64,000 bases of DNA. Origin: Coffea arabica (Eukaryota; Streptophyta; Magnoliopsida; Gentianales; Rubiaceae). Where the stretch lies: positions 24,942,001 through 25,006,000 of the forward strand of contig NC_092312.1 of the NCBI RefSeq assembly GCF_036785885.1. The letters run 5' to 3'. The position numbers were made by a program, and so were the translations under genes. The notes below the pieces were generated by a model. The model was not told the DNA's origin, did no database searches, and worked only from the letters and a program-made list of their open reading frames with translations. How positions within the stretch are numbered: position 1 is the stretch's first letter; each line of letters begins with the position of its first letter. Positions 18,750-60,162 of this stretch are shown here, piece after piece.

Positions 18750-18750
18750 C

Positions 18751-18788
<38 letters not shown>

Positions 18789-19894: not shown

Positions 19895-22800
19895 ATGTTG
19901 TTTGCTTGTGCTATCATTGCTCTTATTGTTATGCTATTCAGCCACTGGGTGTATAGGTGGAGAAACCCCAAGTGTAACGGGGTATTACCACCAGGTTCGA
20001 TGGGACTACCAATTATAGGAGAAACAATTGAGTACTTGACCCCTTATGCAACAGATGATCTCCCACCATTCCTACAAAAAAGAATCTCAAGGTATACGTA
20101 ACCCTTTTTTTTTTACCTCCTATCCCTCTGTACACCATTCTCATTCCAATCTATCAGATACAGTATTCAAATCTTGAATTAGATAATGAAAAAAATTCTA
20201 ATAGCCCTCTTCTAACTGTTGGACCAACCTCAATACTCCTGGTTATCTAACCACTTCTAGACTAGCTATCACATATATATTTTAACAATATTACAGCAGT
20301 AGTAGTAATAGATTAAGAGACGGGTTTATTTGAATAGAGTATTATTTAGAATAATTACTGTAGTATTTTTTGTGATGTGATGTATGTGAGATAAAAAGGT
20401 GATTGGAAATATAAAAAGATGAGCTGAAAAATGTGTTTATGATGCAAGCGAAATATTATTTGGAATAAGTTTACTATCCAAACAAACCCTGAAATTTGCC
20501 TTTGTAACATATCATCATGTCATTTGTAACATAACATCATCAGGAGTAAGATATACTATATTACCCTTTTTGTCAACTCCTCTAATATTCTTTTGCATTT
20601 TATTTGTGCTTTTGTCTTGTCTTTTCTTTGTTTCTTTGTGAATTTTCAGGTACGGGCCAATTTTTCGCACGAATATACTTGGGCAGTCGGTCGTTATATC
20701 AACTGATGCTGAAGTCAACTACCGTGTCTTCCAGCAAGAAAATAATTGTTTCGAGCTCTGCTATAGTGAGAGTTTCACCCGGATAACTGGGAAACAAGGT
20801 TTAGCTGGCTATCATGGAGACTTCCACAAGTACCTCAGGAGCTTAATGTTGAAGCTTGTTAGCCCTGAAGCCTTAAGAGAGAAGATGATAAACGACATGG
20901 TTGACAACACTCGAGAGCATCTAAGTTCTTGGAGTAAACTTGGAAAAGTAGATGCTAAAGATGGAACTGATGAGGTAAATTAATTAGCATCCTACTATTT
21001 GATTATATTAATCAGGATGAATTTGGACTATACGTACAGAGCATTGCATGAAAAGTAGTAATTAACAATCTCATTTTCTACAGTTGTTATTTAAACTTGC
21101 TGCCGAGAAGATGCTTGGCTATGAAGAAAGCAAGGCTCGGAAAAAATTGAGAGAATGTTATTCGACACTCATGGATGGCTTGATCTCAATTCCTCTCAAC
21201 TTCCCTGGAACAGCATTCTATGCTTGCTTACAAGTAATCAATTGTAGTGGTTGTTCGTCATTTGGAATTCTTTTTATATTGAAAGATCGAAGTCCATTAT
21301 TCCTAAAAAAAAAAAAGATTTTCATTATAAATATATGTAAAATATAAATGCTTTCATATATGCTGTATCAGATTGAACGAACTATATGATTTTCATTTTC
21401 CAGGGACGTAAGAAAGCAATGAAGGTCATCAAGGACATCTTTGAGATGAGGCGCTCAGGCAATCACACTAAGAGAGTCCTTGTGGATCATTTACTTGAGG
21501 AAATAGAGAAAGAAGACACCTTTTTGAATGAAGAAATTGCGATGGACTTACTATTCTTGTTTCTGTTTGCTGCCCATGAAACAACTGCAACAGTTATGAC
21601 TTTGACCCTGAGGTTTCTAAATGACCATCCAAATGTTATGGCTGAACTAAAGGTCCATGACTTTCCAAAACAATTACTCCCGTTGTTATCCGTATCTACC
21701 CTCTAATTCTCCAATTCTTGTCCAAGTTCAATACTTAAAGGATTAATATTCTCTATACATTGACAGTGTACATTATCATCATTGGATGTTTATGTTAACA
21801 GAGTGTATAAGATTACTTCACACTTAAATAGCTAATCATTTTTGCAGAGAGAGCATGAAAAAATTCTTAAAATGCGAGAAACTAAAAATTCTCGTGTTTC
21901 ATGGAAAGAGTACAAGTCTATGACTTTCACGCACATGGTACGTTTCAATTAACCAGACATTTCATTGTATCTAGCATTTGAATCATATAGTGAGCTACAC
22001 CATTTACATATTAAGTTTTGTTGTCTGCTGTAGGTTATAAATGAAGTAGTTAGGGTTATAAATGTTGCCCCTGGGATTTTTCGCAAAGTTCTCAAGGATG
22101 TTGAAATAAAAGGTATACTTCAATCTGTCATTTGGCATCTTCTTGAAAATCATTTATCACACTTTCTTTATTTTGAACCCATGATGCCTTTCTCCTACAG
22201 AAAAAAAGAAAATAAAAACTCTCTTTAGTAACTTGGGTTGGGCATCTTTTTCATGGGAGTAAAACTATAGAAATAAACAATTTGTTTCCTTTGTTCTTCC
22301 TTTCCTCCATTATAACTTATAGTTTTGACTAATAAGTACGAATGATTTGTAGGGTATACAATTCCTGCTGGTTGGAAGATAATGGTTTGTCCAGCATTAA
22401 TTCATTTGGATCCTAATCGATACGACAACCCCTATGAATTTAACCCATGGCGATGGGAGGTAATTTAATTATTGACAGATTCAAGTAATTTACACACAAG
22501 AAATATAAAATTGCAGAACAAAAGTTATACAAAATCAAGCAAAAATAATTTAGGTTTTCCCTGCTGTTATTTCAATCAAAAGGGCAAAGACTTGCATACG
22601 GGATCAAAAAATTTCATGGCATTTGGTGGAGGTGTGAGGCTTTGTGTTGGTGCTGACTTTGCAAAGTTGCAGATGTCAATTTTTCTGCATTACATGGCCA
22701 CAAAATATACGTAAGGGTTTCTAAATCACAATTCCCGCCATCTTTGCTTAAATATATATAGAAGCTAATTCTAATATATTATAAATTGATGTCAACTTAA

Positions 22801-22974
22801 CTTCTTCGGTTTTTTAATATGTACGATTGCAAGAAGAAAATGATAACTGATCAAAAAGCTTGTATAATTTGAATTTTCAGCTGGAGAGTTATCGATGAAG
22901 GAGACAAAATCCGGATACCTATTGGTGTTCGTTTCCGCAAGGGATTGCGTATTGAGATTTCGGAGAACGAATAG
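19895..22974 (+). CDS. CYP87: Cytochrome P450, CYP87 family (gene 1)
   Basis: Heme-thiolate monooxygenase, probably ER-anchored. Nine exons: 19895-20091, 20650-20974, 21084-21233, 21404-21652, 21848-21937, 22034-22112, 22353-22459, 22583-22710, 22881-22974. All introns are GT-AG and every junction keeps frame, giving 472 residues, normal for the family. Seen: N-terminal hydrophobic anchor (residues 2-19), hinge LPPGSMGLP (31-39), I-helix AAHETT (280-285), ExxR EVVR (341-344), FNPWRW (393-398), heme loop FGGGVRLCVG with Cys420. Sequence resembles CYP87A/CYP87D, known to oxidise sterols, triterpenes and cucurbitadienol; this substrate is unknown. The ATG at 19895 is chosen because upstream in-frame codons begin with GTG, not ATG. 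About 72 percent identical to gene 2 by hand alignment, and the less family-like of the two in exons 2, 6 and 9. Confidence 0.93.
20322..20489. mobile_element. MITE in intron 1 of P450 gene 1
   Basis: 168 bases with inverted ends GGGTTTATTTGAATAG and CTATCCAAACAAACCC. Gene 2 intron 1 lacks it (sequence runs straight through near 57580-57595). A relative with the same internal phrases ('gatgtatgtgagataaa', 'gatgcaagc') lies at 53733-53899. The target duplication is not clear. Confidence 0.75.
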
Positions 22975-23828
22975 ATTGTCAGCAGGGCAGTTCTCCAGTG
23001 AATTTACCTTTCAGAAGCGTATTTGTGATGCAATAATATACTGTGTTTTGCAAAATTAATTAGTTTGCTTACTACTTTGGGTTGTATTACATTGTAATGT
23101 TGTAAGTGCCTAATAAACAACATTCTAGCTGGTTTCTTTATTGAAACTATGGAGAGTGTTGTCCTTTCTCTTTTTTAGTTGCTTTCCACTTATGTAATTG
23201 TTGAAGATTTTATAATAGTTGCAGTTTGAGCTTGGACTAATTGTTTTTCTTCACTAAATCAATACAATGATTTTATTTATGAGGACAAATCAAGCCAAGA
23301 ACAAAAAAAATATGTAGTAAGTATTACTCTTTCCATCTTGTAAAGTTTGTCGCACTTAATGAATTGCAATTTGTATTAACAGAGAATAGAATTTGAAACT
23401 TGATGTGCCATTTCTCGTTTCATGAAAAGCTAAGTGCTGTACTAGCACGTAAAGAATTGTGGGGCATGATACTTGTTCAATCCCGTGTTTTATTCAAATC
23501 CTAGATATTGAAAGTTTTACCAATAGTTTTCAAAATTTTACCAAATCTTAGATTATTGTGGTTTTAGTTTCTGGGTAACTGTTACATACTACAAAAGTTG
23601 TTTTAGTTTCCTTGATAATAATCTGTAGGCCCATAAAATGGCACATGCATTGAACATTTACGGAGTGTCTAATGAGTAATGACTAAATGGAGAAATTAAA
23701 TACAAATATGTTAGCCAATTTACAGAGGTGACAAATAATTTGGAACAGTCCAACAAAGAAAGTATGACAATATCAATGGCATGAAGGGAATTTCTCTATG
23801 GCCTGACCCTCTTTATCCTGAAATCCAT
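22975..23828. repeat. Duplication copy 1, 3' flank of P450 gene 1
   Basis: 3' UTR and downstream sequence collinear with 60163-60957 and 61760-61835. No further gene. Confidence 0.75.
23113..23118 (+). terminator. Poly(A) signal of P450 gene 1
   Basis: AATAAA 139 bases after the stop codon; the same signal is conserved at 60301-60306 after gene 2. Confidence 0.6.
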
Positions 23829-24880
23829 GTTTTCAAACTTAGACCAGACCATTTGGTCAAACTGCAAATCGGCCAAGTGTTTGGTTCAAATCTTCCTCAA
23901 AAGCCAGTTGTCAAAAGCTCAATCAAACCCAATAAAAACTCAAGTTTGACCAAAAACCGGCTAGAACCGGTTTTTCCATTTTTCTATCTTGAAGGTTTTT
24001 TTTTCCTTTGACTCTTTGACCATGTAGAGAGTTTCATATATTTGCAACTTTCCAACAACTAAAAAATCCAAATAAAATGGTGAATGTCAACTAATTCACT
24101 TGGAGATTGTAGCATGATTTATGCCATAGATACGTATAATTTTCTTCTCAACTCTGCTGTCATTTATGCCTCTTCTTTGCTTGAATTTGAGATTAATTCA
24201 TGGCTTAGGTGAATTGTTCTTTTTATTGAATCTGAAATGTTTCATTAAGAACCCAACTCAAGGGAAGAATTCCATTCTCTAAACTCTTTAAGTTCTCGAA
24301 AGATTTCATATTAAATAAGAAAAATAGAAAACAGAAAAGAGAAGAGAGAGGAGGGGAAAAAAAAGAATGAAGAAAAGAGAAAGCTTTCATGTTTATTTAT
24401 TGTGTGTGATGAAAGAAAAAAAAATAGAGTTCTGATATAGAGAAAGAAGAAGAAAAATGAGAGAGAGAGAGAGTAGAAGGAGGAGGAATTGGCAGAGAAA
24501 GTATAAGGAAGATGGATTAGATTTGATATTTGTTAGCATTGATGAATACCCTAAAAGTTTATGTTAATTGCATTTTGGCCCTTCATTATTTTAACAAAGT
24601 GTAGGATAATCTAATCTATTTTCAAGTTACATTTTTATCTATAATTTTTAAATTTTTTTAAATTGAATCTTTTTGAACTAAATCTAAACTTATCAAATAT
24701 GTAAATGAAGTTGTAAACCACAAATTTATGGATAAATTTTATACATTATTATTTTTATATATTATTAATATATATAAGATGTGTTTATGACATCATTCGA
24801 TTCGACCTCTTATTGATTCCGATTGACTGACCTTTGATTCGGCTGAGTTCGATTCTTGATCCGAATCTGAAAACATAGCT
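23829..24880. other. Copy-1-specific insert, non-coding
   Basis: About 1.05 kb between two stretches that are adjacent in copy 2 (joined near 61836). It starts with Rich 'ccagaccatttggtcaaac' and 'aaaaccggctagaaccgg' text, has a GA-rich middle (24330-24500, including (GA)7) and ends with 'gattcgattcttgatccgaa'. It is probably a non-autonomous DNA element, since both ends carry similar Gly/Arg-codon-like 'gattcg/accgg' repeats, but no exact inverted repeats were fixed. Confidence 0.35.
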
Positions 24881-25393
24881 GTAATTGGATATAGTAGGAA
24901 TGGAATGGACTTTCCCACCATAAAACGTCAATCTAATGGCATTTAAGCACGACACGTAGTTGAATTCTGGAAGGCACTCCACGACTAACACAGAGCATCA
25001 CCTATGACCACGCACATATTGCCCCCAAAACTCTGACATTATTTTTTCTTCTCTCTTTCCCCACAAACACCAAAGCAATATCGTGTAGGAGGTCTTCGGC
25101 AAGTTGATGCATTGCCGATGCAGGTGAAGTTGCGGATGCATCTAATTTTTTAAAAGAAAAACATCAATGACCTCAAAATCACCAAAATCTAACAATTTTT
25201 GGCTTGAATTAAGAACATGCTTCCAAGTCTCCATCAAAGAACTATCAAGCTCTATAGAAGTAATTGATATAAAAAAAATAATAATTAAAAATTAAAAACC
25301 TCTTCGGCCACACCTCATAATTTGATGGACACGAAGTTGGGGATAGTTATAATTTACCACACAAGTTGAAACTTATACAATTTGGCCCCTAAA
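24881..25393. repeat. Duplication copy 1, right end block
   Basis: Collinear with 61836-62312 (for example 'ggacacgaagttggggatagt' and the nearby 'cttatacaatttggcccct'). The match ends at 25393/62312, which marks the right limit of the segmental duplication. Confidence 0.75.
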
Positions 25394-27419
25394 TTTCTTA
25401 TCTGATTTTCTTTCCTATATCAGGAATCAATTGTTATGAAGCATATCTGTGCATTGAACAATGCCAATCAGCCAAAACAGATAAAGAAGAAAATCTGAGA
25501 CATTTTTTAGGGGCCAAATTGTACAGAGAATAACTTCCTTTCTTGGTTTTAAAAAACTTCTACAGCAAGTTACAGTAAAGTTTTAGACAAACACCCAAAA
25601 AACTCACCTTCCAAATGGGGCCTATGTTTGGCACTACTACTCTCATTCTTCAGTTTTTCTTTTTTATTGTACAGCTTTTTTTTTTTTTTACCTTTTCATA
25701 TACTATTTTCCATTTCTTTTGCATGTGCTTACAAAACGTCAACCTGTTTCTTCAATTGAAGCTGGCTGCTCTGTTTGGTGTGTATCTTTTGCTTCAAGAA
25801 GTTGGTATCTTCTATTCTTAAGTTTGTCTAAGAAACCGAATTCTGTGTTGCCCTTTTTTTTTGTCACAAGGATTTTGATTTTGTTCTGTTGTCGATTATA
25901 CTAGAAGATCCATGTCTCACTTTAAAAAGTTTCAAGCATTGATCATATTAATTGCCATGTATTTGCTTTTTGCATGATTATTTAGTCTATTTCTATATTG
26001 CTGATAAGAAAAGAAAAAAAATAACAGCACCTAACAAAAAAGTGTATAAATAGTAGAATAGAGCTCAATGATGTAATTGATAGTTTTTTTCTGTTAGAAA
26101 AGTAAAAGCCTTGATATGATAAGCATGAATGTTGGTTATCTAGAAACCTTTGGATAATAGTCTTCTGTTTTTGCCATGGATTATGTGATCAAAGAAAATT
26201 CTAATAGTATTCCTACTATGATTCCTCAATTTGATCTGGGTCAAATCATGAGGAAAAACGATTGTACAAAAGATGCAATTCTTAGATAGAAAAAAAAATG
26301 ATTAGACAGAGCAATAAGCCTCATAGCCTAGAAACTTTGCCTCCTGGTATTGCATCTCCTTCGCCACTTGTAATATGATAAATGGTTCATTGCTTCAACT
26401 TTTGGTATGAATCAATATCAACTTTTTTAAGTAAAAAATGAAAAGTAACATCTGTAATTTACCTGTAGTATTTGTCAGATTATCTTGAAAACTTATACTG
26501 TGTAATGAAAAAAATCTTTTATGAACATTTTCTTAAGGAGAAAGTGTATGCTGACATGACATGCTTTACATAACTTTTAGCCAATACAATCACATTTTTT
26601 CATGGTTCACCTCCAACCAATAAAGTTTTTGTGTTACCTGGACATAGCAAGAGAGTGCAACTTTGTTTACTTGTTGATATTTAGCAAATGTGTTCTACAA
26701 TCATGTACTGTTTGACGCTGCACTCTTATTTTTATCAGTTGTATTTCACATAGTGACCCTTTAATTCAGCCTATAATGAAACCATTTAACCACTTATCCA
26801 ATATCAGAAAAATATGCTTTATTAACAGCAACAGGGACCTTTACATAATATAAACATGATGACATTTCTCAAACTTTACAATATGTCAGATATATGTATA
26901 GTTCATAGAATTACAATTAAGTAGTTTTTTTCCTGAAGTTGCTGCAATTAATAACCGTCCAGTCCTGCACTTTGTCCATCATTTTGACTAAGGTTGCTCC
27001 CTTGATTGCTGCGAAAAAACTGCGCTAAAGACAAAAAACCAGCCTCTCCAAAATATGCTCATATGACTTCCTCAAGAAACCATGTGAAGCAAACTATACA
27101 ACTTCATATCCTCTTTTGTTCATCATATATATTCTTGAAACTCTTGGTTGCTATTTTTTGTCATCATATTAGAATTCATTAACATTCTCTCCATCGCTAG
27201 AAGTTAATGGATCCTAATATATGATATTAAGTAATTAAAATAAACTTTAAATTAGACAATTAGCATGCCAATGTATCTCTACTTGAGACCTAATTCTGCT
27301 GGAAGGTGTGTAACTGCAACTAAAATAGCTTGACAGCTACATATGAATGATAGTTATGGTGTTATTAGGATATCTTTATAGCCATTTTGTACCTGTTTTT
27401 CCAACTAGAATTGTTATAC
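25394..27419. other. Non-coding, nothing recognised; may include the LINE 5' UTR
   Basis: AT-rich with poly-T runs (25671-25692). No domain, RNA gene or repeat was recognised. The last few hundred bases may be the 5' untranslated region of the LINE, whose 5' end could not be set. Confidence 0.4.
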
Positions 27420-29819
27420 ATGGCTGCCCTTCAGCCGTCGGCTGAGGGGCAAGGATCTCCTACAGGAAAAAAATCTTTCTCCCAACTTTTTTCACAACCT
27501 TCAACATCTGTTATCCCAATTCGGCAAGCGACTGTCTACAAAGGTGAAGCTGCAGTCATTTTCTCCAGAGCAGATGCAGAAAAACTTGCGGAGCCTTTTC
27601 GATGGTCTTTAGTTGGAAAATTCTCTCATGGGAGACCTTCTTTAGAAGATATTCGCAAGTTCTTTGCTTCATTAAATCTAAAAGACCACATTTTCATTGG
27701 CTTGATGGATTATAGGCATGTTCTAATCAAGTGCTCCGCTGAAGCAGATTTTAACAGGATTTGGACGAGAGGGATTTGGCAGTTAGGCAAATTTCCAATG
27801 CGTGTATTTCGATGGTCCCAGGAATTTCATGTGCTCAGAGAATCCTCTCTGGTTCCAGTTTGGGTTGAACTTCCAAATTTACCTATCCATTATTTTGATA
27901 AACATTCGTTGTTTTCCATATTATCTCCAGTAGGAAGACCATTGTTTTTGGATTTGGCAACGGCTGCTGGGACGCGTCCTAGTGTGGCAAGGGTATGCGT
28001 GGAGATCGATGTAGCAAAGCCTGTTTTATCGAGAATCTGGGTGGCGGTTGAAGGAGAAACCGGCTTTTGGCAAAAAATTGTACCAGACGATATGCCAAGA
28101 TATTGCTCAGCTTGCTGGAGATTGGGTCATTCATCTGAAAACTGCAAGAAGAACTTCGTCGATGGGGGACATCAACACCAAAACAATCAAACCAAAAGGC
28201 TTAAGCATGGTTCAAAGCTGTCTGGAAATACTCAGCATAAATTAGTCATTACAAATGAATGTAATGACTTAGAAGCTAAAGATAAATTATCAAAAGAGGG
28301 TACAATAGCTCCTGAACAAATGCAAAGTTCTGGTGAGAAAGAAGACGAAGGAATTACAACAGCTGTAACAAAGGAATCTGAGGGAACTGCTGATAAATGC
28401 AACACTGAAGCCAAAGGGAAAGCATCAATGGAATTCAAGTCAGCTACTGAAGAGGCTCGACTTACGGGCGTAATCCAAATTGAAGGAACGTCAATAGGTG
28501 CAATGTCTGGAGCACCTGAGCAAAACGATGCAGTTGCCGACGCTTACATGGTCAAGGAGGGAAAAAAAACAGCAGCTTTAACAACTGATGCACATCCACA
28601 GTCGGTTGCTGATGGCACCATGCATGTCCATAAGGAGCATTCGGTAGTGGAAGACCAATTGACAGTTTGCTATGGAAATGATTGTGAGGGGCCACAAAGT
28701 CTCAGGAAACATAACGTGGGAATGGTTCAGCATCAAATGATCGACACCACAAGCACAACTAATCAACTGTCCGACAATTCCAATGGGAATATTTCAACGG
28801 GGCCCCAGCTTATTGAGGAGCATAATTTGGGATTAGTTTATAATGAAAGGTCCGACACCAATAATCTTTATGTTGACTTGCGTGGAGATGATGATGAAGA
28901 TTCCAAATCCAATGCGGCTGATGAAGTAGCTTTGCCAACTAACGCAGGAAATTTATCTCCGAGATTGGTTATACCACGTGAGAAGTTGGCTGAGCCATCA
29001 ATACACACTCTAAACATTGACCAATCTGTAGGTGTTCAAATGGATTGCCGACAAGATCGTGTTAAGGGTGTGCGAGAGCTGGCTTCACATCCGACAGACA
29101 GCTACGTTCAGCGACATCATCTCAAAACTCTTTCCAGGTTTTTTCTCATGATTAATGGTTTATTTTGGAATATCAGAGGGGTTGCAAAAGCCCCTAATCT
29201 AAGAAGATTGATAAATTTAGTTCGTGCTCATCATTTGAAGTTTGTTGTCATTTGTGAACCGAAGTTAGACGTGTCCAAAATTGAGTCCATTCGTCTACGA
29301 TTATTATTTGATTATTCCTTTGTTAACTTATCGGGTGATATTTGGATATTCTATAATAGCCCTTTTGTGTGTTCCATTATTGGTAGTTCGGATCAGCATA
29401 TTTCCATACATGTTCAAAGTCAATTGTTTTCTTCTCCAATCATCATGTCTTTTGTCCATGCTAAATGTTCATTAGAGGAGCGGTGTGGCTTATGGTGTTC
29501 TTTATTAAATGATAAGCCTGTGTCACTACCTTGGTGTATTGGGGGTGACTTTAATGTTATTTTAGCCCCTCACGAAAAACGAGGTGGACGTCCGTTTGCT
29601 ATAGCGGAAGGAGCGGATTTCATGTCTTTTATGGAAGAGGCAGGGGTTTTGGATGTTGGCTTTTCAGGAGCTAGTTTCACGTGGTCTAATAATCGGAGAG
29701 GTAGAGCTCGGGTTTCAAAGAGATTAGATAGATTTTTAATTAATGGGTCTTGTTTGGATCTCTCAGACGTGATTCTGTACTCCATCTGTCAAGACATCCC
29801 TCGGATCATGCACCATTGA
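27420..29819 (+). pseudogene. LINE ORF1 (gag-like) in frame with ORF2 endonuclease
   Basis: One open frame of about 800 codons from ATG 27420 (an upstream TTG at 27387 is not a credible start). Residues about 30-240 resemble the DUF4283 RNA-binding domain ('ALQPSAEGQ' start, 'LVGKFSHGRPSLEDI', 'VWVELPNLPIHYF'). A CCHC knuckle 'CSACWRLGHSSENC' follows. Then comes a ~330-residue polar linker, and from about 29148 an endonuclease ('LFWNIRGVAKAPNLRRL', 'CEPKLD', 'IGGDFNVILAPHEKRGG', 'DVGFSGASFTWSN', 'RLDRFLING'). A one-base loss near 29776 breaks the frame before the final SDH motif, which is read in the next frame. An ATG at 29148 could be the ORF2 start, in the same frame as ORF1. Confidence 0.85.
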
Positions 29820-32713
29820 AAATTACTTTTTCTGATCGATCAGACAATAGTCCACGACCTTTCAGATTTTTGAATGTCTGGACGAGCAAACCAGAACTAT
29901 TGGATGTGATTCGACAGTCTTGGAATCAAGATGTGAGTGGATCTCCGCTACGTGTTTTGTGCTCTAAATTATTGGCAACGAGGAGGGCTATTCATACATG
30001 GAACAAGCAACATTTTGGGAATATATTTGATGCTGTACGTTCTGCGGAAGTGGTGGTCCAACAAGCAGAAGAATCGATGGATCAATATGCATCGGAGGAA
30101 TCTCAGGTTGAGCTCAGTAAGGCTCAGGCAGAGTTGCGGAATGCATTGTCAATAGAAGAGCAATTTTGGAGTCAAAAAGCCAGGGCAAAATGGCTTAAAG
30201 AAGGAGATCGTAATTCAAAATATTTCCATGCGGTTGTAAGACAGAGACGAATTAAAGGAATGATACACCGAATCAAAAAGTCAAACGGAGTTTGGGTGGA
30301 CACCAATGCTGACATAGCAACTGAGGCCATATCATATTTCTCTGATCTCTTTACTGGATATCTTGAGTCATCTTCTGATATGCAACATATGATTCCGCAC
30401 ATGATATCGGAAGAGGAAAATAGAAAATTAGAAGAAATGCCTTCGATTGAAGAGATTCATCGAGTTCTAAAGTCAATGGATGGAGATAGTGCTGCTGGCC
30501 CCGATGGCTTCACAGGCAAATTTTTTACATTCGCCTGGAAAATTATTGCTCAAGATGTTTACAAGGCAATTCTCAGTTTTTTCTGTGGTGCAGAGTTACC
30601 TCGTTTTATCACCTCTACCTCAATTGTATTAATTCCAAAAAAACCAAATCCTCAGGAGTTTTCTCATTATAGGCCAATCAGTCTGTGTAACTTCTTCAAT
30701 AAGATGCTATCCAGGATCTTAGCTGATAGACTGGCTTCTCTATTGTCCAAAATTATCTCGCCCCAACAGACAGGCTTTGTGAAGGGCCGTAATATAACAG
30801 AAAATTTTCTGCTAGCACAGGAGGTAGTATCGGGTATTGGGAAAAAAACTAGAGGTGGTAATGTGGTAATGAAGCTGGACATGTCTAAGGCATATGACCG
30901 AGTGGCATGGGATCATATCATTGGTGTTCTCAGGAGATTTGGCTTTGGAGAAAGATTCATTGATTTGGTTTGGCGATTGATCTCCAATGTCTGGTTTTCT
31001 ATCATTATAAATGGGGCATCGCATGGTTTCTTTAAATCTACACGAGGCCTACGTCAGGGTGATCCATTATCGCCTGCTTTATTCATTATAGGAGCTGAGG
31101 TGTTATCTAGAGGATTGAATAATCTTGCTATGCAATCGGGGTTTGTGGGTTTCAAAGTCCCCTTGGCATGTCCTACTATAACTCATTTGGCTTTTGCGGA
31201 TGATATTCTAATTTTTTCAAATGGATCCTCTTATTCTCTAAAGATTATCATGCAGGTGCTAGATGCGTATCAAAGGTGTTCTGGACAATTGATAAATGTG
31301 CTGAAAAGTTGCTACTTAGTACATCCCTCGATATCACCGGCAAGAAGAAGGGTGATTGAACGTATCACCAAATTTAATTATCAACCATTTCCGATACGTT
31401 ATTTGGGATTCCCCCTCTACTTTGGCAGATGTAAATCATCATATTTTGGGGAAGCTTGCCAATCTATCCTAGGGAGAATAAGGTCATGGAAATCAAGGAT
31501 GCTTTCTTTTGGAGGCAAAATAGTTCTAATCAAACATGTGTTGGCAACGATGCCAGTACATCTGTTGTCAGCAGCGGTTATCCCGGGTAAGGTATTTAGA
31601 ACTATAGAAAAAGCCTTCTCGACCTTCCTATGGGGGTCATCCTCCGATGAGTCTAAATTTCACTGGATACGGTGGTCTCAGATGTGCTATCCGGTTGATG
31701 AGGGAGGAGTTGGTTTCCGGAGGTTACAGGACATCTACACAGCATTCTCATTCAAGTTTTGGTGGAACTTCAGAAAGGGATACTCGTTGTGGGCTTCGTT
31801 CATGAAAGCTAAGTATTGTAGACTACTACATCCTTGTCAGGTAGAAATCAGGTCAATGGACTCCGCAATCTGGAGAAGGATGGTCAATGTAAGTCGACAA
31901 GTGGAGCTATCTATGCTATGGGATATAAAAAACGGAGCTTGTCATTTTTGGTACGACAATTGGTTGGGAGGGGGTGCCTTATTTCTCCGTACGACGGTTG
32001 TCTCTAATTTGTCGTTTGGTGATTTTATCATCAATGGACACTGGGATGTGATTAGATTATATCAGACCTTGCCGACGGATCTGGTTCCCTCTATTTTAGA
32101 GCATCCAGTCCCGGAAGACTGGGGTGAAGCTGAAGTCATTTGGATGTCCACAACATCTGGAAACTTCTCTCTAGCTTCGGCATTCCGGGATATTAGGCAA
32201 GCATGAAACAAGTCTATGGTTTTTGATAGCATTTGGCATCCTCAGATCCCACTCAAAATTTCATTCTTCATGTTAAGATTGTTGCTGGAAAGGCTGCCTT
32301 TACCGGATAGGTTATGTAATCTTGGTTTACATTTACCATCAAAGTGTTTCTGCTGCGATACCGCATCAGAGGAGTCAATTGAACATTTATTTTCCAAAGG
32401 CCATATAGCTTCAACAGTTTGGAATTACTTTGGAGCTTCATGTGGATTGACTTTTCCAGGCTCTTCTTTACGCTCCCGTATAGTGAGTTGGTGGTTGCAC
32501 TCATATGATTCAGAGATACAGCGATTTATTGGACGCATTCTTCCCAGTATAGTATGTTGGCAAATTTGGAAAGCAAGAAATAAAGCTTTTTTTGAGGATG
32601 TACATATGAGATCGCCCCGCCATTTGTGTTGCCATTTCCTTGGAAATCCATACCATTGTGGAAATTTATTTCAAACAAGTTTTCAAGGCACATTCAATCT
32701 ATCATTTGTATGA
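29777..32713 (+). pseudogene. LINE ORF2: end of endonuclease, reverse transcriptase, zf-RVT
   Basis: Continues ORF2 after the frameshift with 'SDHAPLKI'. RT landmarks: 'AAGPDGFTGKFF', 'LIPKKPNPQEFSHYRPISL', 'QTGFVKGRNI', 'KLDMSKAYDRV', 'GLRQGDPLSPALFII', and the catalytic FADD at 31193-31204. After the RT lie 'PIRYLGFPLYFGR' and 'WKSRMLSFGGKIVLIK', typical of plant L1 elements. A TGA at 32204-32206 replaces a sense codon; the same frame continues through the zf-RVT-like part (32216-32620: 'IPLKISFFMLRLLLERLPL', 'CFCCDTASEESIEHLF', 'WQIWKARNKAFF'). The frame shifts near 32600-32640 into RNase H. Confidence 0.92.
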
Positions 32714-33284
32714 TTGGCCGTATTCATCTCACACTTATGTCACGTACAAACTTGTTTGTTGGGAACCAAAGGAAACCGGTCGGTTTACACTAAATACCGA
32801 TGGCTGTTCTAAGGGTAATCCAGGATTGGGTGGAGGAGGTGGGGTTCTTCGGGATTCACATGGCATTCCTTTGATTGGTTTTTCGGCATATCTTGGAGAA
32901 ACTACATGTCTAAGTGCAGAGGCCCGGGCTCTTCTTATTGGCATTCAAACATGCATACATTGGGGTTTTGAGAATCTCTATATTCAATCGGATTCTTTGG
33001 TATTAATTGGAATTCTTCAGAAACGTATTCACTGCCCTTGGAAGATTCGACGAGAGATTAGGCATATTTGGCAGTTCGTGGAAGATCCTGATCGTTTTTC
33101 ACATTGTTATAGGGAAGCTAACACAGTCGTTGATGCATTGTCCAATGTGGGCGTCTCTCATCCAGAGCATCAACTCAAGTTATACGACTCCTTCCACATG
33201 TTTCCAACTATGGCTCGTGGAGCAATTCGCCTCGACAGATTAGGGATGCCTTCAATTCGGAAAATTAAGCATATGAAGGGCTGA
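32640..33284 (+). pseudogene. LINE ORF2 C-terminal RNase H domain
   Basis: A separate frame carrying an RNase H of the plant LINE type: 'TLNTDGCSKGNPGLGG' (first Asp), 'CLSAEARALLIGI' (Glu), 'IQSDSLVLIGIL' (Asp) and 'REANTVVDALS' (fourth acidic position). It ends at a TGA at 33282-33284. In intact elements this is continuous with the RT; here it is offset by one frameshift. The 3' untranslated part with AATAAA and A-rich tail follows. Confidence 0.9.
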
Positions 33285-36640: not shown

Positions 36641-36645
36641 GATTG

Positions 36646-49850: not shown

Positions 49851-49927
49851 GTAATTGATATTCTTAGGAGCCCGTTTGAATTATAATTCCACCAATTCTT
49901 AGAAGAGTTTCAACCGCCTGCTCCTCT

Positions 49928-50113
49928 CTAATTCTTTAACTGCATTGCTTGATGATTTTGTCCCTGCAACCGGTTCTGTATATCCTGTTTCGACAATATC
50001 CCAAATTCCAATAACTTTGAAAAAAAAATCTCCATCATTGGCCTCCACATCTCAAAATAATTTTTACCATCAAAGAAAAAAAGGGGACAATTTTGTAAAT
50101 AATTTGAATACAT
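49928..50113 (-). pseudogene. Ty1/copia gag start, fragment
   Basis: Minus strand reads 'CPLFFFDGKNYFEMWRPMME', then 'IFF'. The F-x-G-x-N-Y-x-x-W pattern opens many plant copia gag proteins. The frame ends after about 60 codons and no protease, integrase or RT follows to the left. The A-rich 50191-50340 segment to its right, with a minus-strand TATAAATA near 50318, could be the matching LTR. Confidence 0.5.
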
Positions 50114-51300: not shown

Positions 51301-51640
51301 CCAAATCATGGCCATCAACTACCAGGAATGGTTGTCGCCCCATTTCCCATCACTGTGTCCTCTTTCCCTACACTGGCTCCTCGTCCCCTCTTTACCCCCC
51401 CCCCCAACCCCACTCCTGCCCAGCCTGATCAGGCACCACAAGCACAAATCTAGTCACAAGGAGGAGGAGCAGCAGGGGTGGGGGGTGGGGGAGGGGGAGA
51501 GGAGGCTGGAGGACAGGGGAAAAAGGTTGAAGGAGAGGGAGAGAAGGAAGGAGGGAAGGGGGAAAATCCCGAGGTTTACGTATAGGTAGACAGATTATGG
51601 CTACTTTACATATAAGATCTTGGATCCTCATGTATTTCAA
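51301..51640. repeat. Strand-asymmetric low-complexity block with G-quadruplex motif
   Basis: An 11-C run at 51395-51405 lies in a pyrimidine-rich part; 51461-51560 is almost pure purine. GGGG-T-GGGGGG-T-GGGGG-A-GGGGG at 51475-51497 is a G4 motif with one-base loops. The frame covering it (51308-51589) is compositional, not a gene. Confidence 0.8.
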
Positions 51641-51727
51641 TTAATTTTTAGATGGCAACTCTTCTTTTTTCTTTTTTCTTTTATCAATAATCATTATACT
51701 TTTGAAGGCATGATGACTGTTGACAAG

Positions 51728-51780
51728 GTTGGGTTGAATGTAAAAAAAAAAAAAAAAAAAAAATCAGTTGGGTTGAATGT
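51728..51780. repeat. Poly(A) run between 14-bp direct repeats
   Basis: GTTGGGTTGAATGT at 51728-51741 and again at 51767-51780 flank 22 A bases and TCA. This has the form of a retroposition target duplication around an element reduced to its tail. Confidence 0.7.
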
Positions 51781-53725
51781 GTAACCAGGCAAGAAAGTAA
51801 CCCGTATGCATAAGATGAAAGTTGAAAAATTAGCGTCACCTTTGGTCAACAATAATTTTTCCTAGAGAAGTGAATATTTTCTCCAGGTCATTGGAAAGGA
51901 AAAAGATACGTCACATATAACCTCCCTAAAGTTTTACATTTTACCATATGATACCCTAAAATTTTAATATATCCACATCATCTCCTATGATTTTAAGCAA
52001 ACTGAAAAAATAGATAAAAAGCCCTACCAATCACTGTGATTGAATCAAATGCACTCCAAAAATATGTGTGATAAAATCATAATATTTATTTAATTTGTCT
52101 ATAATCTGTATGGATATATACTTTACTCCTATAATTTTTGCATTTATTAGCGAAATTCCCTAGAGTTTTGTTCAAGGTGATAAGGCCGTGGTTCAATTTA
52201 GTGTTTAAATGAGAATAATGCTGATATTTCAATTAACGACATTATGAAAGCTATTTTCTATCAAGTTTCTTATTTACATGGAACTACAATGAAATGAAGT
52301 CAATATTTTGAAATGTTAGAGAATCGTATGATAATGTGCGAAACTACAAGAGGGTTATGTGTAATTTACAGTTAAAATATTTTAAGCTCACTTAAGAGAG
52401 AGACAGAGAGAGAGAGAGAGAGAGGAGCTTTGCAACTCCAAGTTTATAGATCTACTTAATTATATGGGGTCTCGTCCATGCTCATCTATTTAATCAATCA
52501 TAGATAACATATTTTGCCCTATTGCTTTGTGTCCACTTGGACGAGTGAAGGGTCATGATATCAATGATTTAACTTTAAACAGTTTATCAAATAAATTTAG
52601 TACAGATTGTAAACGAGATTCTCCTTTTCATTAGAATTTTTTCCATTGATCTCTCCATTTGTTGAATATCTTAATAGCTATAAATTTATAAAATCAACAC
52701 AAGTTATAATATATTTTATCACTCGTGTCAATTATACATAAAACAATGTAGTTTTACGTTGAATTAGCAGTGAAGTATGAGCGTGTGTAAAAATTTGCCA
52801 ATTTATAAATTTTTTTATTTTTAATAACTACATAAAAATGGAACATTTAGAAACAAAAAAGTGTCACAACAATCAGCCCTTCCAAACTGTTGTGTTTCCA
52901 TAATGTTTTGGGGCCATTCCATGTCTATTATGTCGATACGAAATCACTCAAGTTTCAATTAATGCCCTTCCTTCTCGTGAAACATTTTTGCCATCAAAAT
53001 AGACAAATTAGTTTTTTATTCTATTTATCTAATATGTAGAGATTTGATTAATGGTGAAAAGTTTGGTGTGGCACAACTTATATTAAATAGTTAAAATAAT
53101 TTTCACTTTGCTTGATATTTTTGTGCCAACGCGTTGGAACCTGTAAATACAAAGTAATGGCCTTGGACGAGGAACCGTTCCTGCCAGTTCATAGTCAAGA
53201 TTTGGCCAAAAAAGAATGTAAGGTCCAAATTTTATTTTATATTTTTGTTTTTCACGTCATACGTGAGATTTACAAAATTTTATTGTATAGATACATGTTA
53301 TTAAAAGTGAGTTACGTCATAAACACAGACAGAATTACATCGCGTGTAATTTGCACAAAATTGCTCCCAACGATTTGTCTGATAACCCTTGGCCCCTTTT
53401 ACAATGCCCATGTTTTCACGCCAGATCGCTTTCTTCTTTCTTTCTTTTAATATTGACATTAATTGACACCAACATATCGTACACCGCGAATGTGACCACT
53501 CTTGTCCTTTCGCAGAATTTTAGAACCGCTCCATGCTAAATTATTGTCCACCAACCGAATTTTGGGATCAGTAGTCTTTCTTAATGCGTTCGGTCTTTTG
53601 TTAAATTGCTCAGGCAGCTTGTCTCCATTGTCATGCCTCTCATGTACGTGGATTTGATGTTGAAGGATGGAGGAGGACATTGAGGAGTACAGAAAACTGG
53701 GTTCCGTGGATTAAATATTCCTCAG
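51776..53725. repeat. Duplication copy 2, left non-coding block
   Basis: Collinear with 12197-13980 with about 5-10 percent differences and indels, including an expanded (AG)n run at 52391-52421. 53142-53725 also matches 695-1440. No conserved frame. Confidence 0.75.
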
Positions 53726-53732
53726 GTGCCTT

Positions 53733-53899
53733 TGTTTGGATGGGAGATTATTTGAAATATTTATTTGAAATAATTATTGTAATATTTTTTATGATACGAT
53801 GTATATGAGATAAAGAGGTGGTTGGAAATTATGTGTATAATGCAAGCAAAATAAATTTTGAAATTTTTTTTTTTTGAAAACCTTGTAATTCAAACAAAC
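53733..53899. mobile_element. MITE, relative of the P450 gene 1 intronic MITE
   Basis: Inserted in 'ggtgccttt...cctattgtaat' relative to 1400 and 13960. Inverted ends TGTTTGGATGGGAG and TTCAAACAAAC; internal 'gatgtatatgagataaagagg' and 'aatgcaagcaaaat' match 20322-20489. Confidence 0.7.
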
Positions 53900-54350
53900 C
53901 TATTGTAATATTGTATTTTAAAAGCTTTACTATACAATAACGTATTTTAGAGTGTTTTAGAATTTAAAACTTTTTCAGTTACTTTTTAAGATTTATTTGA
54001 AATGTTTTTGACAATATTTTTAAATTCAAATCAGCAAGTGTCTAGGTCGCGATTCAATTGGTTTATGCAATTTAACCTGGATTCAATGATTTCAATATAT
54101 CCAAAACAAAAAGAAAAATTCAAAAGCTCGCGTAAAGTGTAGAAAAGTATATTTAGAATTTTTTGAGGGAGCCCTCGAACGGGTTTAAAGACTGCTGGTG
54201 CTGGTGTAGGCAATATGAGGGATACTACGCCATGTTTAACTTTTATGCCAAGGGCCATTGGTCCTCCCTTGTAACAAAAAAAATAAAAATAAAAAGAGGT
54301 TTAGAATGTTCAAGCAGCTCCCAATTCTTCACACCTATCATCCACTTGAC

Positions 54351-54729
54351 TAGAGGTACTATTGAGTTGAGTCGAGTTCAAGTAGCACCATACTCGCGCT
54401 CGAATTCAATCAGAATCAGTGCTACTCGAACTCGAGCTCGAACGAGTAAATAAATTTGGATTCGAGTTTGACTCAATAAAATAAAATTAAATTCGAGCTC
54501 GGCTCGTTTGAGCTCAAATAAGCTCGAATAAATATCAAATCCGATCTACTCGAGCTTGAGTTTTGAACTAAACCTATAAATTTTTTTTCAAAATATATAA
54601 TATAAATATAATATGAAAACTTGATTAAGTTTGTCAAGCACTCGAGTATTTATTTTTGAAACTCGAACTCGACTCGTTGAATGTAACGAGTAGCTCCGAG
54701 CTTTTGACCAAAACTTGATTGCACCCCTA
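54351..54729. mobile_element. hAT-like MITE, relative of 15815-16268
   Basis: Ends TAGAGGTACTATT and TTGATTGCACCCCTA; interior rich in CTCGAACTCGAGCTCG. It is absent from the homologous block at 1850. Flanks CACTTGAC and CACTAAGA share only CACT, so the target duplication is uncertain. Confidence 0.55.
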
Positions 54730-54734
54730 CACTA

Positions 54735-55950
54735 AGAAGTTGCCATCGTCATCATCGCGAATAGCAGCATATGAATACCACTCTATCTTGGACAAAGTTC
54801 ACCATAAGGCATTACCTTTGTCATTTAAACTTTTTTTTTTCTTTCTTTTTTGTGCATCAGCCCTCAGAAAAAGTTGCTTATAATTCACCTTTGTCATTTA
54901 AACTATTTTTAGAAATGGAAATTAAAAACAACCAACTTTAAAAAAAAAGACGTTGAAGAATGTCTACAAATAAGAGGCCAATCATCACTATTTAAAGATT
55001 TAACACACATTATCATTTTCTAAATAAACTAAAATCAAACTATTTCTACAAAACCCAACAAATGTTGTTTCTTTCCATCCCACAAAAGAGGAAAAAAAGA
55101 CGAAAATGAAGCATTAAGAAAAAACCATAAGAATATATTATAATTACATGTATAATATATTTAATATTGTTAATTTTCATAATTATATTATTAGTTATAG
55201 ATATGAAATTATGTAGATGTAATATAATTAATATTATCAGTCATACTAATAATTATATATTTATACTAATATAAATTATTGATTAGTTATACTAATACAT
55301 TTATACTAAATTAGTAATTACAATTTTTATTAATTATACATTTATTCTATTATACACTTTTTATTAATTATATACCTTTTACTAATTATATATTTATACT
55401 AAATTATTACTTATATTTTTTTACTAATTATATATATTTTTTATTCATTATAAACTTTTTCCCCCTGGGTGTGCGGGGCGGAGTAGGTGCCCTATATTTT
55501 TATTCATTATAAACTTTTCCCCCCTGAGTGCACGGGGCGGCGTAGGTGCGGGGGCACGGGATGTTTAGGCAACATGGAAGGATTTGGCTTTTCTCCAATA
55601 AATTCTCTCTCCAATAAATTCTCTCTCCATTTTTTACAATACACATTTGAAGGAATGACATATCTTCATTTACTAAGAAGGGACAAGATCATTTTAAATT
55701 TGACTAATCTTAACCCTTGTTAATAAATAAAGACACATGCCATGTATACAGATGTGTATTGTGAGAAATGAATAAAGAATTGAATAGCTTGAATTTGCAA
55801 CTGACTTTGACACCATCCAAGATAGATTTTTTGCTGCCTCTCTCTCTCTCTCGAAAATAGGGCCTCACAAGTTTCATTTCGCACAAATTGGTGTAAATTA
55901 ACAATTTACTCTCAACCTATACCAAATTACCCTCAATTTACACTGAACGA
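54735..55950. repeat. Duplication copy 2, AT-rich upstream block
   Basis: Collinear with 16800-17642 plus 18710-19060, skipping the MULE. 55438-55560 holds a local tandem duplication of about 63 bases ('tttttattcattataaactt' then a GC-rich 'gcggggcgg' part). 55692-55700 is the empty MULE target site. Confidence 0.75.
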
Positions 55951-55952
55951 TA

Positions 55953-56391
55953 CTCCCTCCGTCACATTGAAAGTGTCATATTTTTCTTTTTTTGGTATGT
56001 ACCAAAATTAATGTCACTTACCACAATTGGCAATAAAAACTTTCCCCCATTTTCTTCTCATACCCTTAAATATACCAGATTCTTTTAATCTTTCAATGGA
56101 CCCAGAAAACAACAAAGAATTGCACTTGATGCATGTGAGTCCCTAGTCCCAGAGCAAGTGCAAACAATGGTCGTGCAAGATACTTTCCCAAAACAGCAGG
56201 AGACATTCTTGAGGCATGGGTCCCACATGTCTTGTCACCACTCCATTATCTTTCTGCCATTTGACAAGTTATAATGCACAGGAACTAAATAAAGGTATTG
56301 CCCGAACTTAGACCAAAACATTTGAAATCTTGGCACTATTGAAAATAAGTGTGAGACCCAACGTGCGACAAATGTTTCGGGACGGAGAGAG
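55953..56391. mobile_element. Stowaway (Tc1/mariner) MITE
   Basis: 439 bases. Left end CTCCCTCCGTCACATTGAAA, right end TGTTTCGGGACGGAGAGAG: the standard Stowaway-type inverted repeat. A TA precedes it (55951-55952) and the right TA appears as CA (56392-56393). The orthologous place in copy 1 (about 19061-19070) has a single TA and no insert. It lies about 770 bases upstream of the P450 gene 2 start. Confidence 0.9.
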
Positions 56392-56960
56392 CAATAATCA
56401 ACTCATACCAAAGTGTATCTGATTTACATCAAATAATAACAAATTAACATATACTAAACTGCACCTATTTACATCAAACTGGATCTGATTCACACTGAAA
56501 TTCTATTTATTTACACAAGAGGTCAATTTGTACAAAATTATACTAAACACAAATTATGAGGCTTCGGATCCCTCTCTATCCACTGTGACCAAGCACCTTT
56601 GGTCTTCACATTGACTTTCCACTGTAGCCATTTTTCCTTTACCTCTTTGTCAATTTCGGAAATGGAGCCTCACAAGTTCTATTTCGCACAAGTGTATAAT
56701 AACAATTTATTCTCAATCTACGCCAAATTACCTTCAGCTTATACTAAATGACAATAATCAACTTATATTAAATGATAATAATCAACTTATACCTAAGTGT
56801 ATCTGACTTACACCAATTAATAACAAGTTAACATATACTAAACTGCACCTGATTTATATCAAACTGGTTTTGATTCGCACCAAATGCTATTAGTTTACAC
56901 AAGAGGTCAACTTATACGAAATTGTACGAAACACAAATTGTGAGGCCTCGGATCCATCAA
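56392..56960. repeat. Upstream tandem duplication of P450 gene 2
   Basis: Remainder of the first unit and the second unit of the repeat described for 18960-19690, each closed by 'tgaggc(c/t)tcggatcc' (56546 and 56940). Confidence 0.7.
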
Positions 56961-57045
56961 TTTCCTGTGAAATTTGGATCACCAGGTAATATGTCTATCG
57001 CCAATGGTCTTACAGCGCGTCGTTACCAAAGCTTGCGCTCTCCAT

Positions 57046-57054
57046 CTATTTAAG
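57046..57054 (+). promoter_or_regulatory. Probable TATA box of P450 gene 2
   Basis: CTATTTAAG, 102 bases before the ATG and conserved with 19772-19780. Confidence 0.6.
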
Positions 57055-57155
57055 TTGCTCCAACTTCCCAAATTCCTTATACAGCAAACAATAACAATTT
57101 AGCTACTCTCTTTTCCTTTTCTTTCCTTGCATTTCTGGTGCAACAACCACGGACC

Positions 57156-60100
57156 ATGTTGTTTGCTTGTGCTATCATTGCTCTTATTGTTATACTTTTC
57201 AGCCACTGGGTATATAGGTGGAGAAACCCCAAGTGTAACGGGGTATTACCACCAGGTTCGATGGGACTACCAATTATAGGAGAAACAATTCAGTACTTCA
57301 CCCCTTATGCATCAGATGATGTTCCACCGTTCGTACAAAAAAGAGTGGCCAGGTATTTCTAATCCCTCTTTTTCTCTCGTCACCTATTTTTCTTCATACC
57401 CTTTTTTCCCCCCAACTATCCGATACAGAATTTCAAATCTTGAACTAGACAGTAGAGAAAACTCTAATACTCGCTCCTAATTATTGGGCCAACCTCAGTA
57501 CTCCAGTGGTCATCTAACCATTTCTTAACTAGCTATCACATATATATTTTAACAATATTACAGCAGTAATAGTTATAAATTAAGAGATGATATTTGTCTT
57601 TGTAACATATTATCATGTCATTTGTAACATAATATCATCAGCTGTAAGCTATATTATGTTACCATTTTTGTCAACTCTAGTATTCTTTCACATTTTATTT
57701 GTGCTTTGTTTTGCCTTTTCTTTGTTTCTTTTTTTTTTTCTCCTTTGGGAATTTTCAGGTACGGGCCAATTTTTCGCACGAGTATAGTTGGGCAGCCAAT
57801 CGTTGTATCAACTGATGCTGATGTTAACTACCGTGTCTTCCAGCAAGAAGGTAATGCTTTCCAAATTTGGTATACTGAGAGTCTCTTCCAGATAATTGGG
57901 AAACAAAGTGTTGTTGCCCATCATGGAGACTTCCACAAGTACCTCAAGAGCTTAACGTTCAAGTTTGTTAGCCCCGAAGCCTTAAGAGAGAGGCTGATAT
58001 ATGAAATGGATGCCAGCACTCAAGAATCTCTAAGTTCTTGGAGTAAACTTGGAAAATTAGATGCTAGAGATGGAACTGCAGAGGTAAATTAATTAGCATC
58101 CTACTATTTGATTATATTAATCAGGATGAATTCGGACAATACGTACAGAGCGTTGAATGAAAAGTAGTAATGAACAACCTCATTTTCTACAGTTGGTATT
58201 TAAATATGCTGCCAGGAAGATGCTTGGCTATGACGAAAGCAGGGATCGGCAAAAATTGAGAGACAGTTATAAGGCATTCATGGATGGCTTGATCTCATTT
58301 CCTCTCAACATCCCGGGAACACCGTTCCATGCTTGCTTACAAGTAATCAATTGTTGTTGTTGTTGTTCGTCATTTGGAATTCTTTTTATATTGAAAGATC
58401 GATGTTCATTATACCTAAAAAAAAAAAAAAGATATTCATTATAAATATATGACTAAGTAAAATATTTTTGCTTTCATATATGCTGTATCAGCTTGAACGA
58501 ACTATATGAGTTTCATTTTCCAGGGACGTAAGAAAGCAATGAAGGTCATCCACGACATCTTTGAGAAGAAGCGCTCAGGCAATAATGGCGCTACGAATGA
58601 CTATGACTTTGCGGACCATTTACTCGAGGAAATAAAGAAAGAAGACACTTTTTTGAATGAAGAAATTGCGAGGGACTTGGTATTTTTGTTTTTATTTGCT
58701 GCCCATGAAACGACTTCAACGTCTTTGACTGTGGCCTTGAGGTATCTAGATACCCATCCACGAGTTATGGCTGAACTAAAGGTCTATGACTTTCCGAAAC
58801 AATTTCTCCCGTTGTTATCTGTATTTACCCTTCAATTCTCCAATTCTTGTCCAAGTTCAATACTTAAAGGATTAATACTCTATATATATATTGATAGAAT
58901 TTTTTTTTCGTCAAAGGTCAATTTATATATATATATACACTGATAGTGTATATTGTTATGATTGGATGTTTACACTAACAGAGTATGTAAGATTTTTTCA
59001 TACTTAAATAGCCAATCATTTTTGTAGAGAGAGCACGAAAATATTCTTGAAAAGCGAGAAACAGAAGATTTTGGTGTTTCATGGAAAGAGTACAAGTCTA
59101 TGACTTTCACACATATGGTATGTTTCAATTAACTAGACATTTCATTGTATCTATCATTTGAATCATATAGTGAGCTACACCATTTACATCTTAAGTTTTG
59201 TTGTCCACTGTAGGTTATAAATGAAACGGTTAGACTTGCAAATATTGCCCCTGGGATTTTGCGCAAAGTTGTCAAGGAAGTTGATGTAAAAGGTATACTT
59301 CAATCTGTCATTTGGCATCTTCTTGAAAATCATTTGTCGCACTTTCTTTATTTTGGACCCATGGTGCCTTTCTCCTGCAGAAAAAAGAAAAAGAAAAACT
59401 CTGTTTGATAACTACTTGGGTTGGGCATTTTTTCATGGGAGTAAAAATATAGAAAATAAATGATTTGTTTCCATTGTTCTTCCTTTCCTCCATTATAACT
59501 TACAGTTCCGACTAATAAGTGTGAATGATTTGCAGGGTATACAATTCCTGCTGGCTGGACGATAATGGTTTGTCCACCAGCTATTCATTTGGATCCTAAT
59601 CTATATGAAAACCCCCTTGAATTTAACCCATGGCGATGGGAGGTAATTTGATCATCGACAGATTTGAGTAATTTGCACACAAGAAAGATAAACTTACAGA
59701 ACAAAAGTTAAACAAAAACAAGTAAAAATAATTCAGGTTTTTTCTGCTTTCATTTCAATCAAAAGGGCAAAGAATTACACGTGGGATCAAAAAGTTTCAT
59801 GGCATTTGCTGGTGGTACGAGGCTTTGTGTTGGTGCTGACTATGCAAAGGTGCAGATGTCACTTTTTCTGCATTACTTGGTCACACAATACACGTAAGGA
59901 TTTCTAAATCACAATTCCCTTCATCTTCGCTTAAATACATATATATAGAAGCTAATTCTAATATACAATAAATTGATGTCCACATAACTTCTTCCGTTTT
60001 TTAATATGCATGATTGCAAGAAGAAAATGATAACTGATAAAAAAAGCTTGTATAATTTGAATTTTCAGCTGGAGAGTTCTTCCTGGAGCAGAGAGAATCC

Positions 60101-60162
60101 GAACACCTACTGGTATTCAATTCCCCAAAGGATTGCCTATTGAGATTTCTAAGAACAAATAG
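57156..60162 (+). CDS. CYP87: Cytochrome P450, CYP87 family (gene 2)
   Basis: Tandem paralogue of the gene at 19895. Nine exons: 57156-57352, 57759-58083, 58193-58342, 58524-58781, 59028-59117, 59214-59292, 59536-59642, 59766-59893, 60069-60162. All junctions are GT-AG and in phase; 475 residues. Exon lengths equal those of gene 1 except exon 4, which is 9 bases longer (a residue insertion in a charged loop near 246). Seen: N-terminal anchor, LPPGSMGLP hinge, AAHETT (283-288), ETVR (344-347), FNPWRW, heme loop FAGGTRLCVG with Cys423. The heme loop has Ala where gene 1 and most CYP87 have Gly. Other positions (ETVRLANI, RTPTGIQFPKGL) are closer to the family than gene 1. Likely role: oxidation of a triterpene or sterol at the ER; substrate unknown. 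Confidence 0.93.

Follow-up and report, generated by a model that had tools for sequence, protein, structure and literature searches.

In the phospholipase A2 isozyme genes of crotaline venoms, coding regions are said to outpace introns and untranslated regions after duplication, a contrast that Nakashima reportedly read in 1995 as positive selection. Here we describe a tandem pair of CYP87-type cytochrome P450 (P450) genes, A and B, which lie in a 64,000-nucleotide stretch of Coffea arabica DNA (NC_092312.1, positions 24,942,001 to 25,006,000; hereafter the window) on chromosome C3 and show the same kind of contrast. The venom genes belong to an animal family and reportedly show a stronger contrast, whereas the coffee A and B exons exceed the introns by 1.3-1.6-fold.

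Among plant P450s, the Bx2-Bx5 genes (CYP71C) of grass benzoxazinoid synthesis are likewise tandem duplicates with clade-defining branches on which omega, the ratio of nonsynonymous to synonymous rates, is above 1; such values are given for the BX3, BX4 and BX5 clade branches, followed by functional divergence (PMC3449204). Unlike A and B, they belong to another P450 family and have known substrates, and selection there was placed on few sites (PMC3449204). The CYP71AJ genes of Apiaceae are also a plant P450 bloom, and their variable substrate-recognition regions are proposed to follow substrate change (PMC4482195). In that bloom, the sites on which both selection methods agreed were considered probable false positives (PMC4482195), whereas in coffee the branch tests are significant and the enrichment of regions is not. 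The coffee copies share their family with the CYP87A enzymes of Digitalis, Calotropis and Erysimum, for which two papers describe a lineage-specific gain of sterol side-chain cleavage in cardenolide synthesis, with single residues decisive (PMC10581899, PMC10329713). Isoleucine 210/209 governs CYP87A activity according to one of these papers (PMC10581899). Coffee A and B, by contrast, lie outside the canonical CYP87A clade that includes Catharanthus. Among the titles listed by a literature search on CYP87 selection, coffee CYP87 and P450 exon-intron contrasts, none was on the coffee cluster, and coffee CYP87 enzymes were absent. Positive selection after duplication is established in tandem plant P450s, and the coffee CYP87 cluster would be a further case.

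A and B have probably been shaped by episodic positive selection after duplication, within a bloom of CYP87 genes in coffee. Taken by itself, the A/B pair gives no evidence of positive selection. Moderately strong evidence, with the weaknesses set out below, comes from the family and places the selection on two branches, the A lineage and the stem that B shares with its relatives (the B/C stem). In the alignment of A and B, 198 of the 1419 exon sites differ (14.0%), compared with 161 of 1486 intron sites (10.8%; Fisher p 0.011) and 98 of 1102 sites in introns 2-8 (8.9%; p 8e-5). The earlier note on this DNA had put the excess of exons over introns at two to three times; the reversal is real, but that figure is selective, because none of the other seven introns is as little diverged as intron 2, and exons 1 and 7 are low (7.1% and 10.3%). 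The introns span 5.5-16.4%, with introns 3 to 8 at 6.5%, 12.8%, 6.2%, 8.8%, 13.8% and 7.1%, and a hand-picked short intron such as intron 2 can double the apparent size of the effect. The counts that had been given for intron 2 and for exons 2, 3 and 9, including about 37 replacements in exon 2, were exact on recount (Table 1). In the 165 bp past the stop codon we count 15 differences over 161 sites (9.3%) instead of about 12 (~7%). The noncoding flanks beyond the genes have diverged on par with the introns.

The statement that nearly all exon changes alter the amino acid holds for exons 2 and 3 and does not extend to the whole gene, in which 153.8 nonsynonymous and 44.2 synonymous differences fall on 1115 and 301 sites, respectively. 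The ratio of nonsynonymous (dN) to synonymous (dS) divergence in the pair had been named beforehand as a refuting check. dN is 0.152, dS is as high (0.164), and omega is 0.93 (bootstrap 0.66-1.36), with a second estimate of 0.86; the claim of positive selection made on the pair alone thus fails. In addition, the synonymous sites of A and B exceed introns 2-8 in divergence (p 0.005) and, less clearly, all introns together (p 0.06).

The case for selection comes from the wider family. Eight gene copies were fetched and ten gene models were read, all of which are open frames. Nine of them form the test set (A, A4, B, B4, C3a, C4a, C4b, O3 and O4), with A4x and A' excluded as near copies of A. Because the A, B/C and O clades join at one node in this set, the topology among them is not at issue. 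Pairwise omega is 0.22 for B-B4, 0.29-0.32 for B-C and 0.31 for O3-O4, compared with 0.86 for A-B, and A and A4 differ by 16 nonsynonymous and 2 synonymous changes. In the branch model, omega is 1.31 on the A stem, 1.33 on the B/C stem, 0.92 on the O stem, 2.56 on the A tips and 0.34 elsewhere; freeing the three stems from the rest raises twice the log-likelihood (2dlnL) by 21.8 over a single omega. The branch-site tests give p 0.0006 for the A lineage, 0.0023 for the A stem, 0.017 for the B/C stem, 0.075 for the O stem and 0.0001 for the A and B/C stems together. After Bonferroni correction for these five foreground sets, all remain below 0.05 except the B/C and O stems. None of 17 simulated nulls reaches the A-lineage 2dlnL of 11.77, and none of 36 reaches the two-stem value of 14.96. 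The negative controls, branch-site tests on the B+B4 stem and the stem of the C copies, both give 2dlnL 0. The site models give 2dlnL values of 7.26 (M1a/M2a), 7.33 (M7/M8) and 7.26 (M8a/M8). The branch-site check with outgroups that had been proposed, carried out here with copies from the same genome, is therefore significant on the A lineage and on both stems together. Positive selection after a recent duplication, as the earlier note had it, becomes likely once outgroups are added, as an episode on both sides of the duplication; the duplication itself is not recent in coffee terms, because the A-B dS of 0.177 is about 5-9 times the dS of homeologs (B-B4, 0.037; O3-O4, 0.020).

The introns provide a neutral reference for the same branches. 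The A stem has dN 0.0905 and dS 0.0693, with intron lengths of 0.046-0.051; the B/C stem has dN 0.0515 and dS 0.0387, with introns at 0.017-0.020; and the O stem has dN 0.0434 and dS 0.0475, with introns at 0.067-0.072. We fitted a joint codon and intron model in which silent and intron rates are tied by one factor. This factor is 0.92 with all introns or 1.16 with introns 2-8, not significantly different from 1 (p 0.2-0.43). For the A lineage taken together with the B/C stem, the joint-model omega is significantly above 1, at 1.63 with all introns (p 8e-4) and 1.72 with introns 2-8 (p 5e-4). Taken singly, the A lineage gives p 0.054 and 0.014, and the B/C stem gives p 0.0006 and 0.009. When exon 1 is omitted, the two omega values become 1.90 (p 4e-5) and 2.01 (p 3e-5), and the branch-site p values are 0.002 for A, 0.080 for B/C and 0.0008 for both.

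According to the models, replacements on these two branches built up at least as quickly as silent and intron changes, and orthologues inside the B, C and O clades differ mostly at silent sites (omega 0.2-0.3). Exons would look faster than introns because the introns and flanks stayed at the neutral rate. Positive selection may have driven the duplicates to different substrates or products, that is, to neofunctionalisation; B may later have settled under purifying selection, and A may still be changing. Intact plant enzymes with a whole-gene replacement rate at or above neutral are uncommon, and slow, settled and fast paralogs that adjoin each other, each with homeologs, make a compact natural experiment on substrate gain in P450s. 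More tentatively, and as a possibility that we rate below the selection itself, the CYP87 bloom on C3 and C4 (at least 27 loci) could represent a promiscuous sterol or triterpene oxidase that gave rise to two or more new types of enzyme, A and B/C, under positive selection that lifted the whole-gene replacement rate above neutral, with A still selected; the cluster would then be a candidate source of coffee steroids or triterpenoids.

Several points weigh against positive selection on A and B. Pairwise omega between them is below 1 by both estimates. When only codons are used, a whole-gene omega above 1 lacks significance for every branch and branch set (best p 0.055). The B/C stem alone is marginal, with p 0.017, 0.047 when double substitutions are allowed and 0.080 without exon 1. 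Branch-site significance is lost (p 0.21, 0.13 and 0.11) when the 65 of 477 columns with multi-nucleotide changes are dropped, although the branch omegas are still 1.44 and 2.09; this procedure discards the fastest sites by design, yet the loss is a real weakness. Within a stringent mask of substrate-recognition regions drawn from the predicted structure, 11 of 72 positions carry A-derived changes, compared with 33 of 350 outside it, so that the enrichment is not significant (p 0.14). Moreover, a single genome assembly supplied every sequence, 9 of at least 27 copies in all, and the codon models were run in purpose-written code, not in PAML or HyPhy.

Relaxed constraint is the alternative that survives best, and we consider it unlikely. 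Under it, purifying selection was largely lost in A, and for a short time in the B/C ancestor, replacements became about neutral, and the excess over introns reflects chance and uneven rates. The codon-only whole-gene result just given fits this, as does the 16:2 ratio between A and A4, which is compatible with omega near 1. Among 107 other plant CYP87s, 171 columns show conservation of 90% or more; A deviates at 24 of them, compared with 18 for B and 9 for the slow Coffea copy P0003. However, about 110 unconstrained substitutions would produce a mean of 3.95 stop codons, with zero in 1.2% of simulations, and A has none. The only exon insertion or deletion between A and B is one in-frame 9-bp change, compared with 18 in the introns, and all four A-type copies read (A, A', A4 and A4x) are intact. 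On the absence of stops and the indel contrast we reject pseudogene drift of A. The branch-site nulls already permit a foreground omega of 1, and the joint model places omega above 1, both of which count against relaxed constraint.

It is quite improbable that gene conversion between A and B homogenised the introns and flanks while selection kept the exons apart, so that the introns look young. Primate red and green opsin genes provide a precedent, with introns homogenised by conversion and exons held apart. In coffee, the intron branch lengths are below the silent ones on both the A stem and the B/C stem, and in the 5' flank A and B group together against C and O at 7 of 99 sites, the other two groupings having none. 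Within the introns, however, only 1 of 1145 sites groups A with B against C and O, compared with 14 that group B with C against A and O and 6 that group A with C; the corresponding exon counts, of 1319 sites, are 3 for A+B, 42 for B+C and 1 for A+C. Silent and intron rates also do not differ significantly over the tree, and the noncoding flanks outside the genes diverged like the introns. We therefore reject intron-only conversion after the B/C split, for which no support was found; the earlier note, too, had thought conversion confined to noncoding parts less likely. This evidence applies after the B/C split, and conversion could have taken place before it. In the roughly 300 bases before the start codon (56856-57155 on the B side; flanks of L029-L035), A goes with B, apart from their paralogs in the 34-35 Mb cluster, and C goes with O; in the coding parts B goes with C, as if a recombination point lay near the start codon, with promoters following the cluster and coding parts following the clade. 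More improbable still is an artefact in which multi-nucleotide mutations or short exon exchange with other paralogs mimic selection: 36 of the 160 codons that changed between A and B carry two or three nucleotide differences and the dropped columns end branch-site significance, but those columns include the fastest amino-acid sites, the tests on A (p 0.0025) and on both stems (0.0006; B/C alone 0.047) stay significant when double substitutions are modelled, and the derived residues are mostly new, matching the family majority in only 6 of 44 cases for A and 3 of 30 for B/C, so import of exon segments from ordinary CYP87 genes is rejected.

The differences between A and B are dense in two predicted structural elements, the B-C loop in exon 2 (11 of 22 residues) and the beta-4 hairpin in exon 9 (8 of 13 residues). 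The secondary structure is the prediction for P0004, a close relative of A, with a mean predicted local distance difference test score of 86.8. With the structure-based mask, all A-B differences give 30 of 82 compared with 100 of 390 (p 0.056). A mask drawn by eye with the differences already known gives 20 of 88 compared with 24 of 334 for A-derived changes (p 1e-4), and this value moves to 0.056 or 0.0006 when each region is shortened or extended by three residues. Enrichment at substrate-recognition regions is not claimed; the third region of the by-eye mask had been placed at the incorrect end of helix G. Two replacements in exon 3 of A, F210I and I214F, lie within the widely conserved stretch GLISFPLNIPG, which has a GLISFPL-IPG-like form in most of the panel.

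By domain, identity and motifs, A and B are assigned to the CYP87 family. The P450 domain (PF00067) is found in both (A, 5.7e-62; B, 7.4e-63), and the haem motif FxxGxRxCxG, the I-helix motif AxHETT and EXXR are kept in all nine copies checked, A and B among them. The splice models confirm the coordinates previously given for both genes: all eight introns have GT-AG ends, each gene has a single open frame, and all splice sites are common to both. The two proteins have different residues at 130 of the 472 aligned positions. Among the proteins listed, those closest to B are Coffea 'cytochrome P450 87A3-like' proteins, and the non-Coffea full-length matches listed as 'cytochrome P450 87A3(-like)' mostly have 50-60% identity to B. 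P450 naming requires more than about 40% identity for a family, and more than about 55% together with a clade shared with named members for a subfamily. Identity to the listed proteins is 48-64%, which bears on membership of subfamily CYP87A, and the protein tree separates the coffee copies from the group that holds Catharanthus P0056. In the same tree O lies outside the group of A and B/C (support 96/97), and the branch lengths are 0.044 for P0003, 0.23 for the A stem and 0.12 for the B/C stem. Judged from their sequences, A and B are probably working paralogous P450s in a CYP87 side branch whose expansion is specific to coffee. A scan of viral contigs found no relative.

A genome search with exon 2 of B found at least 27 places at 62% identity or more, at least 9 on C3 and at least 18 on C4, which we infer to be a homeologous pair; C15 and C16 each hold one relative at 44-45%. 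Around 25 Mb there are both A-like and B-like copies; at 34-35 Mb, B-like copies are numerous and are joined by one slower copy (O; 73% and 76%). This second CYP87 cluster is the larger one (C3:34.27-34.67 Mb and C4:34.85-35.31 Mb), and its many B-like copies are near-identical and lie in both orientations. A itself sits in a recently duplicated block (Table 1), whose second copy of the gene, A', is intact and has one silent coding difference from A. On C4, the A copy L036 (C4:25,187,200-25,190,900) shows no difference from A on C3 over 1661 intron sites, compared with about 3% in other homeologous pairs, a matter of either homeologous exchange or assembly. Another A-like copy (C4:25,252,418-25,259,932) has exons 1-2 and exon 4 about 6 kb apart, which suggests an insertion inside it.

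Table 1. Features of the A/B locus, with positions in the window unless a chromosome is named; differences are between A and B.
Feature	Position	Strand	Remarks
Gene A, CYP87-type cytochrome P450	19895..22974	+	9 exons, 472 amino acids, intact; splice model
Gene A, exons 1-5	19895-20091, 20650-20974, 21084-21233, 21404-21652, 21848-21937	+	
Gene A, exons 6-9	22034-22112, 22353-22459, 22583-22710, 22881-22974	+	
Gene B, CYP87-type cytochrome P450	57156..60162	+	9 exons, 475 amino acids, intact; exon structure as in A
Gene B, exons 1-5	57156-57352, 57759-58083, 58193-58342, 58524-58781, 59028-59117	+	
Gene B, exons 6-9	59214-59292, 59536-59642, 59766-59893, 60069-60162	+	
Proximal 5' flank of A	19661..19894	+	14/220 sites differ from B (6.4%)
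Exon 2	A 20650..20974, B 57759-58083	+	50/325 (15.4%); 42.0 nonsynonymous, 8.0 synonymous; 37 residues replaced
Exon 3	A 21084..21233, B 58193-58342	+	21/150 (14.0%); 19.0 nonsynonymous, 2.0 synonymous
Exon 9	A 22881..22974, B 60069-60162	+	20/94 (21.3%); 15.5 nonsynonymous, 4.5 synonymous
Intron 1	A 20092..20649, B 57353-57758	+	63/384 aligned sites (16.4%), above exon level
Intron 2	A 20975..21083, B 58084-58192	+	6/109 (5.5%), least diverged of 8 introns
Recent duplication block holding A	690..25390	+	Copy 50.7 kb upstream, C3:24,891,912-24,916,673; 24,779 aligned bases, 99.2% identical
Older A/B duplication unit	12192..25393	+	Pieces match the stretch around B, 51775-62315; ~70-93% identity
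Ty3-type long terminal repeat element, broken	8889-11942	-	
Non-long-terminal-repeat retrotransposon	27387-33284	+	
Hyccin-domain open frame	40903-41502	+	PF09790, 4.7e-27; partial profile match

Mobile-element sequence also occurs in the window. The broken Ty3-type element is present as pieces of gag, reverse transcriptase and RNase H. The non-long-terminal-repeat retrotransposon lies between A and B and has DUF4283, reverse transcriptase and RNase H in successive open frames; its endonuclease match is weak, under the Pfam cut-off. The Hyccin-domain open frame also lies between the two genes.

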